Assembly: GCA_018623505.1 (NCBI GenBank)
Contig: JAAZVM010000004.1
Span: 1-15,710, forward strand
DNA from: Patescibacteria group bacterium
GTDB taxonomy: Bacteria; Patescibacteriota; Gracilibacteria; BD1-5; UBA6164
DNA: 15,710 bases
Reading direction: 5' to 3'
The notes under the pieces were generated by a model that ran no database searches, had not been told where the DNA came from, and worked only from the letters and a program-made list of their open reading frames with translations. The position numbers and the translations under genes were made by a program. The first letter of the stretch is position 1. Each line of letters begins with the position of its first letter. Shown here one piece after another: positions 3,684 to 5,383 of this stretch.

Positions 3684-3714
3684 TAAAAAGAAAAATCCCC
3701 ACATATGTGGGGAT
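3684..3714 (-). terminator. Intrinsic terminator of the rRNA-like RNA
   Basis: ATCCCCACATATGTGGGGAT (3695-3714) is a perfect palindrome. On the minus strand it is followed by TTTTTCTTTTT (3694-3684). It lies just past the last conserved helix strand of the minus-strand RNA and gives that RNA a defined 3' end. Confidence 0.85.
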
Positions 3715-3997
3715 GAAAAACTTTCTTGAGTCAGCCTCTTCCTCCAGTTTGTCACCGGCAGTTTACTATAAAATCTATAGTATTGGCTTTTAGTCCGTTA
3801 CGGGGGTTAACCCAACATTTCACAACACGGACTCTCAAGAGCTTTAAGGACCGTCATAGTACGGTCAGGGTACCCTAAACTCGATTTACAGAGATAGGTT
3901 CGCCTAAGACTCGGATTTTTTTCACCTTACAACGTAGCGGATTACTAATCCTCCGAGTATTGAACACGAAAATTACCCGAAAGCAATCAGGTTCAAC
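3690..3997 (-). ncRNA. Structured RNA resembling parts of 16S rRNA head domain plus a 23S H69-like hairpin
   Basis: This non-coding stretch has a promoter at its 5' end and a terminator at its 3' end. Read on the minus strand, 3830-3724 aligns with 16S helices 34-40 (about E. coli 1050-1205). Runs include GTTGTGAAATGTTGGGTTAA (3826-3807) and GGTGACAAACTGGAGGAAG (3756-3738). Pairing is kept with changed bases: TCTTGAG/CTCAAGA (h34-like), AGTCCGT/ACGGACT (h35-like), AGCC/GGCT (h38-like), TACTATA/TATAGTA (h39-like) and CCGG/CTGG (h40-like). Upstream, GACCGT-ACTATG-ACGGTC (3866-3849) nearly copies 23S helix 69. Further 5', TCGGA, TAGTAATC and GGTGAA resemble 16S about 1329-1375, which would be a permuted order. 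It is too short and too rearranged to be a working 16S gene. Function is unknown; it could be an rRNA mimic that binds ribosomal proteins, or a decayed rRNA copy. The paired changes and transcription signals favour a maintained RNA. Confidence 0.75.
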
Positions 3998-4003
3998 TAT
4001 TCT

Positions 4004-4030
4004 ATTATAATTAAATTTTTGAATTGTCAA
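4004..4030 (-). promoter_or_regulatory. Sigma70-type promoter for the rRNA-like RNA
   Basis: On the minus strand, TTGACA (4030-4025) is followed after 15 bases by TATAAT (4009-4004). Both boxes match the consensus exactly, although the spacer is one to two bases short. The predicted start is near 3997, where the first pairing strand (GTTGAAC) begins. The -35 box directly follows the T-tract of the preceding terminator. Confidence 0.75.
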
Positions 4031-4204: not shown

Positions 4205-5383
4205 TTATTTTATAATTGTTCCAGGATTTGTAAAAGTGTTATTTTCTAGTACTCTTCAAGGCATACTAGATGAATTTATACCTGTTTTACAATTATCTCA
4301 AATGATTATTCAAAATTTTCTTAATCAAGTATCTGTAAGTATTCACTTTACAGGCACTTTTATATTTCATTTATCATGTCTTAGATTCGCAGTTATAAAT
4401 CATCAACCTATATTTATATTATTACCTAGTATAGAATCTCATATATAACTTAAATGAGCTATATTTGTATTATCAGATATACTACTATTTTTAACTTCTA
4501 CTGCATTTCATATTTTACAGTTATCTCATATAGATGTTTCTCATCTTAAGTATGTATTAGGTCAAATTTTTGTATTTTTTCATATATAACAGTTTCATTC
4601 TATATATGTTCATGACTTAAGTATTGCTCATTCTTCGAGTATTATATTTCACTTAATATTTACTCAATGTTCTATTTCTCATTTTATTTCTGATTTTTTT
4701 AGTTTAGCTAAAAGTGATTTATTTGCTGATAATATATCCCAAGGGTATCATACATCTATAAATTCTTTTTTAATTTCTATAGCCTTTAACGGATGAAGTT
4801 CTACAAACTTATTTATTGCATCAGTTATCTCATATTCTCATCTTATAGAAGGTTTGACTTTTTCTGATAGCTCTATTATTTTACAATTGAATTTATATAT
4901 TCATAAACTAGCTAGATTTCATACAAAATCAACTGGTTTTTCTATGATTTCTCTAATATTATTATCTGAGTCTGTTTTGAAAATACCATACTTTTCAGGT
5001 TCTGTTACTTGTTTTACAAGTACTCAATATCAGTTGTATTTAGCTAGAGTCTCTATGTCAGTTTTATCAAATATAGTATCTGCATTCATTATAAAAACAT
5101 CTAAATCTTTCTCTATTCACATAATTGCTGCAGCTGTACCATTTTTTTCTACTTGTTCATGATATGTAATAGGAACTCATTTATAATTATTTCAGAAATA
5201 ATCTTTAATTATTTCTGATTTATATTTTACAACTATAACTATTTCTACTACGTGCTTATATATAGTTTCAAGATTGTGTTCCAGTATTGGTTTTCATACT
5301 ATTTTTATCATTGGTTTCGGAATAGTATTCGTAAATGGTCTGAGTCTTGTTCCTTCTCATGCTGCAAGAATTATAGCTTTCAT
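4205..5383 (-). CDS. GlmU-like bifunctional sugar-1-phosphate nucleotidylyltransferase/acyltransferase
   Basis: A 392-residue protein with TGA as Gly. Residues 4-25 carry the nucleotidylyltransferase signature LAAGEGTRLRP...PKPM, with NAD at 100-102 (metal-binding Asp), EKP near 148-150 and VGYPWD at 211-216. From about 240 to the end it has hexapeptide repeats of a left-handed beta-helix, typical of acyltransferases. AHLSYIGDS near 309-317 aligns with the GlmU acetyltransferase block holding the catalytic His. The C-terminal pattern TANLRHD...DTGLRKFGIIIGDN resembles archaeal-type GlmU-like enzymes more than E. coli GlmU. It probably activates GlcNAc-1-P or a related sugar as UDP- or dTDP-sugar for envelope polymers; substrate is not decided by sequence. 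The gene is single, divergent from gyrA. Confidence 0.9.

Follow-up and report, generated by a model that had tools for sequence, protein, structure and literature searches.

The minus strand of a Gracilibacteria contig carries what is best read as a dedicated, independently transcribed non-coding RNA of about 310 nt, predicted from its promoter and terminator signals, whose 3' domain has the h34-h40 secondary structure of the 16S rRNA head. This fold was supported by a covariance model (R1), by covariation and by a sequence-only control. The window, meaning the whole stretch of 15,710 nucleotides analysed, is contig C104. The genome has 115 contigs and 597 kb, is 64.5% complete and uses TGA for glycine, which places it with the Gracilibacteria/SR1 kind. 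A second stand-alone RNA, with a similar h40, was found in another family of the same order.

Genomic Setting and Transcription Unit

The 16S-mimic unit is flanked on one side by a plus-strand ribosomal-protein operon with rpmA as its last gene (gene names assigned by eye, rpmA also by search). On the other side is a minus-strand nucleotidyltransferase-like gene, named by eye, which ends at 4205. The unit converges on rpmA and leads no gene. The consensus promoter proposed in an earlier, sequence-only reading was present with exact hexamers, and transcription probably starts near 3997. No other perfect TTGACA/TATAAT pair with a spacer of 14-18 nt occurs in the window, where 0.09 would be expected; such a pair was present in 17 of 200 shuffles. 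A promoter scan using 16-18-nt spacers omits it, its spacer being 15 nt. The T run of an upstream terminator (4056-4035) runs directly into the -35 box. The terminator named in the same reading was recovered by a terminator scan. The GC content of the RNA is 0.42 compared to 0.27 for the window. No Rfam families were matched across the window at E ≤ 1 and no tRNA or tmRNA genes were found in it. Folding of the whole RNA was modest (z -2.76), with 2 of 100 shuffles folding equally well. The features of both RNAs are listed in Table 1.

Table 1. Coordinates of the predicted features of the window RNA and of the G059 RNA.
Feature	Position	Strand	Basis or remark
16S-mimic unit	~4003-3690	minus	~310 nt; ~314 nt between the landmarks used for the G059 RNA
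-35 box TTGACA	4025..4030	minus	exact hexamer
-10 box TATAAT	4004..4009	minus	exact hexamer; 15-nt spacer to -35
Intrinsic terminator ATCCCCACATATGTGGGGAT + T tract	3685..3714 (stem 3714-3695)	minus	terminator scan
5' half	3847..4001	minus	three hairpin elements (~3997-3959, 3958-3909, 3905-3867), then H69-like hairpin
H69-like hairpin GACCGT-ACTATG-ACGGTC	3849..3866	minus	resembles 23S H69, E. coli 1908-1926; score 25
16S-like domain	3721..3846	minus	h34-h35-h38 three-way junction with h36/37, h39 and h40; covariance model R1, sequence-only control R3
h34-like helix, 5' strand TCTTGAG	3834..3840	minus	pairs with 3730-3724
h35 5' strand AGTCCGT and h36/h37, containing GTGTTGTGAAATGTTGGGTTAA	3799..3833	minus	31/34 to E. 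coli 16S 1071-1104
h35 3' strand ACGGACT	3792..3798	minus	predicted fold, pair comparison
h39-like hairpin TACTATA/TATAGTA, short	3764..3782	minus	predicted fold, pair comparison, covariation
h40 CTGCCGGT-GACAA-ACTGGAG	3742..3761	minus	23/25 to E. coli; element common to the G059 RNA
h38 3' strand GGCT (5' strand AGCC)	3733..3736 (3788-3785)	minus	predicted fold, pair comparison
h34-like helix, 3' strand CTCAAGA	3724..3730	minus	predicted fold, pair comparison
G059 RNA	L003 1684-1373	minus	separate unit 3' of the 16S gene end (L003 1836)
G059 promoter TTGACA-N16-TATAGT	L003 1712-1685	minus	promoter scan

Sequence and Fold of the 16S-like Domain

The RNA matched E. coli 16S rRNA at 31 of 34 positions over 1071-1104, with a score of 53 compared to a maximum of 32 in 500 dinucleotide shuffles of the whole RNA. 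Over 1157-1181 it matched at 23 of 25 positions, with a score of 40 (maximum of 30 in 500 shuffles of that piece). The likeness to the 16S head claimed for this locus is thus far above shuffles and is limited to h34-h40. The minimum free energy fold, made without a 16S reference, already contains h34-, h35-, h38-, h39- and h40-like helices, including all four helices for which pairing had been claimed (h34, h35, h38 and h39). The locus is not a 16S gene, as had also been stated. A full-length RF00177 match is absent from the window at E ≤ 1, and the true full-length 16S gene of the source genome (G000) is located at G000:C99:2151-3636.

Sequence alignment of the RNA with the own-genome 16S was below significance. 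R1, which was built from the mimic RNA alone, scored E. coli 16S at 80.5 bits and the own-genome 16S at 54.8 bits. A model of the same rows without base pairs gave 43.6 and 18.4 bits, respectively, so that structure accounts for about 36 bits of both scores. In the comparison with the own 16S that had been proposed as a check, the fold is shared, but the matching bases are of a foreign type and not the genome's own.

Paired Changes

The mimic was compared to E. coli and own-genome 16S at 36 base pairs. Relative to E. coli, 21 pairs were the same, 2 differed in one base, 11 differed in both bases and 2 were broken. Relative to the own 16S the corresponding counts were 15, 0, 17 and 4. All 36 pairs are intact in the mimic, which is partly explained by their being defined on the mimic RNA itself (34 are also standard pairs in E. 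coli), yet 26 of its 72 paired bases are unlike E. coli. An equal number of random changes made to E. coli left a mean of 19.1 of the 36 pairs, with a maximum of 27 in 2000 trials. The covariation score was 0.376 compared to 0.102 for shuffled and 0.028-0.066 for slid versions of a 17-row alignment, which was fitted to the mimic structure and so favours the score.

Of the 16 aligned 16S rows, 14 have UGUCGUC/GACGUCA as their h34 strands. One of the remaining two has a single-base difference and the other was shifted by the aligner. The mimic has UCUUGAG/CUCAAGA, so this nearly invariant helix is rewritten on both strands. Pairs broken by drift, which mark an rRNA pseudogene, were not seen in the mimic domain. 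The paired changes and the rewritten h34 make the mimic unlike a decayed 16S copy. Of two earlier suggestions, a structure kept through paired changes is upheld by the 11 pairs in which both bases differ from E. coli, and a leftover rRNA copy is made very unlikely by the intact pairs in spite of the altered bases.

Type of 16S Copied

The mimic RNA has the h36 sequence TTGTGAAA and the h40 loop GACAA. All 24 distinct 16S segments from the same order (15 from the family and 9 from the order) have h36 CCTTGAGG and an h40 loop of GTYAA (GTTAA or GTCAA). A further 11 segments from the phylum were mixed at h36, and a GAYAA loop was present in none. The absence of this h36/h40 type from the 24 same-order segments places the template outside the own order. 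E. coli 16S has h36 TTGTGAAA with the loop GATAA, Psychrosphaera haliotis 16S has TTGTGAAA with GACAA, and the 16S of a Bacilli MAG has TCGTGAGA with GACAA; the pattern comparison misses two Mesosutterella/Dakarella loci. BLAST of the mimic against plasmids gave Amphritea and Halomonas as the top matches (34 nt, 94.1%). The template appears to have been a non-patescibacterial 16S, and the gammaproteobacterial type fits best.

The 5' Half

No 16S similarity above shuffles was found in the 5' half. Colinear 16S homology was rejected, as it depended on a gap-friendly alignment over 16S 944-1215 which 82 of 300 shuffles of the 5' part score as well. Readings as h45 and h44 were below chance level and were discarded. 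A model of the 5' half (R2) matched 1 of 40 and 1 of 288 genomes, both being the window itself. The H69-like stretch alone had a score that was reached in 59 of 2000 shuffles. Another stretch at 3963-3983 on the minus strand resembles 23S 1938-1959, and the two together within 60 nt were found in 11 of 12000 shuffles over both rRNAs. Three stretches in 23S 1876-1959 were equalled by 8 of 5600 shuffles on 23S, by 25 of 5600 for the match sum on 16S, and by 1 of 1210 real windows. The likeness of this hairpin to 23S H69, chosen post hoc, is no more than suggestive.

A Second RNA and the Search for Further Members

BLAST of the mimic over 99 relatives gave one further meaningful match (27 nt, 96%, E 6.9e-6), in genome G059, which belongs to a different family of the same order. 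Matches in G038 and G030 were rejected as terminator-like and AT-rich stretches. The G059 RNA is 312 nt long up to a bulged stem and six T; this terminator was read by eye from the fold and the terminator scan lists none. It matched E. coli 16S 1157-1191 at 33 of 35 positions (score 60; maximum of 30 in 200 shuffles). It matched the window RNA at 26 of 27 positions (score 49; shuffle maximum 26) over a stretch slightly longer than h40, and its h40 is of the foreign type. R1 gave a partial match only, covering positions 65-109 of 126 with 26.4 bits. In the predicted fold a long h34-like helix closes the junction that contains h40, and the place of h35-h37 is taken by a short hairpin. The h35-h37 sequence is lacking, beyond h40 the fold is not 16S-like by R1, and no relative of the 5' half was found in the locus. 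The unit converges on an ORF which presumably encodes RNase R. A G059-type RNA was absent downstream of 16S in the congener G052. Both RNAs have a CCGGT/ACTGG stem that includes one G-U pair, which would favour a common origin over two captures.

The proposed class of stand-alone 16S-head mimics, with their own promoter and terminator, thus has more than one member (G000 and G059), its two members coming from one genome each in MAG data. They occur in different families and different genomic places and were absent from congeners within the range searched. A homolog next to rpmA or elsewhere in related genomes had been suggested as a check. None was found beside rpmA in 29 loci from 45 family genomes, where the best local score was 234 compared to 1580 for self (no shuffle control), and the G059 RNA supplied one elsewhere in the order. 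Twenty neighborhoods of 16S in relatives contained only genuine lineage-type 16S.

The covariance-model search that had been recommended returned the partial G059 match. R1 matches occurred in 18 of 48 family, 182 of 379 phylum and 147 of 288 class genomes (overlapping sets), in searches whose strict first-look filters lose weak matches and whose sensitivity is lowered by masking from true 16S. All matches except the window RNA itself and the partial one in G059 are taken as 16S. Four extra loci fetched from the multi-match genomes G389, G531 and G636 were 16S by Rfam, a check that excludes two of the three G636 matches, both G289 matches and the weak G405 and G561 matches. The second match in G167 (19.5 bits, E 0.067) looks like chance. 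A first pattern scan of the genome_contigs set gave 0 loci. Later scans with patterns not of the G059 type gave 11, of which 9 were 16S by R1 and the other 2 were judged by eye to be coding. Six patterns gave one locus in the viral_contigs set, coding by eye.

Two other observations were made at these loci. A group II intron D1-D4-1 match lies shortly after the 16S gene in G389 (L076 1913-2009). At a contig start in G531 (G531:C34; L075 153-640) the 16S h34-h40 segment is present twice at a distance of 356 bp, one copy lying in a truncated-looking 16S match. This doubled segment is probably an assembly artefact.

Discussion

Maintained as a structural copy of the 16S h34-h40 subdomain, the mimic may act as a decoy for a head-binding protein, a function that we consider about as likely as not. 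The h36/h37 and h40 loops were kept while the helices were free to change, which points to a protein decoy, or sponge. The RNA would present the h35-h40 surface of the head outside the ribosome, and this exposed surface would titrate a ribosome-binding protein. As the element common to both RNAs, h40 would be the core of the protein site.

The most likely ligand would be a protein on the uS2/HPF side of the 30S head. S7 binds at h28-29/h41-43, which are absent from the mimic, and so does not fit. S2 would fit best among the candidates S2, S3 and S7, because h35-h37 form the uS2 head contact (PMC10931766). In the S. aureus 100S ribosome the C-terminal part of HPF touches h40, and uS2 meets h26 (PMC5620080). 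The G059 RNA is without h35-h37, so the uS2 head contact is not common to both RNAs. It would be odd for a sponge of the cell's own ribosomal proteins to have loops that differ from those of the own 16S, as the loops of the mimic do. uS2 was found in the incomplete source genome only as a fragment of 16.9 bits, below the cut-off (G000:C112:10882-11052), and was above the cut-off in 44 of 48 family genomes.

Ribosomal proteins S15, S8, S7 and S2 (the operator of rpsB-tsf) have autoregulatory leaders which mimic rRNA. These leaders, as is proposed for the mimic, bind a ribosomal protein by imitating an rRNA site without being part of a ribosome. The rpsB operator is said to share its architecture with the uS2 site on 16S (PMC10931766). 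The leaders act in cis as part of the mRNA that encodes the protein, whereas the mimic is a stand-alone unit with a promoter and terminator and does not lie upstream of a ribosomal-protein gene on its strand. Unlike the leaders, it reproduces an entire three-way junction and does so with sequence identity. CsrB/C and 6S RNA are protein-titrating small RNAs and share the proposed sponge logic; they are not known to contain an rRNA domain. The plant 5S rRNA mimic exon P5SM is also an RNA element that imitates rRNA to bind a ribosomal protein but, unlike the mimic, it is eukaryotic, acts in cis and controls splicing. The h34-h40 fold and the loop sequences are common to the mimic and 16S rRNA (RF00177), but the mimic has only about 126 nt of it, with h34 and h35 rewritten. 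No comparable RNA was found in the literature on rRNA mimics and rRNA-like small RNAs (open-licence articles).

The foreign sequence type raises the question of whose ribosome is imitated. The RNA could mimic the ribosome of a host bacterium and either shield the cell's own store of an anti-16S effector, as a decoy antitoxin, or act in the host cell. The combination of h36 TTGTGAAA and the loop GACAA occurs in gammaproteobacterial 16S and in 0 of 24 same-order segments, and both RNAs have a foreign-type h40. GAYAA loops are also found beyond the Gammaproteobacteria, however, as in the Bacilli MAG, no effector, secretion signal or host is known for the source genome, and RNA delivery would be unprecedented here. 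We regard a host-directed role as unlikely. Its fullest form is a disguise, in which an RNA of host-dependent Gracilibacteria presents the 16S head of a gammaproteobacterial host and neutralizes or stores a protein directed against foreign ribosomes, or titrates ribosome-binding proteins of the host. This is rather improbable; within it, the possible H69 hairpin would make the mimic a composite of both subunits. An RNA of some other function, such as a scaffold or base-pairing regulator, may have taken up an rRNA module simply for its stable fold. The 5' half exceeds the 16S-like domain in size and has no relation to 16S, in keeping with such recruitment, but a neutral scaffold needs no exact h36/h37 and h40 loops, and this origin is similarly improbable. 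A horizontally captured rRNA fragment drifting without function would account for the foreign type and patchy distribution, but it is very unlikely and largely refuted by the paired changes, with 36 of 36 pairs intact compared to at most 27 under equal random change, the nearly invariant h34 rewritten on both strands, a promoter and terminator of its own, and a second promoter-driven example in G059.

If the decoy reading is true, a ribosomal domain taken from another bacterial group is presented in trans by an RNA that is not part of a ribosome. Trans-acting rRNA-domain decoys would then be a new principle, and 16S-like fragments in metagenomes would not always be debris. The RNA would also open a testable route to the way in which host-dependent Patescibacteria control ribosomes, either their own or those of the host.
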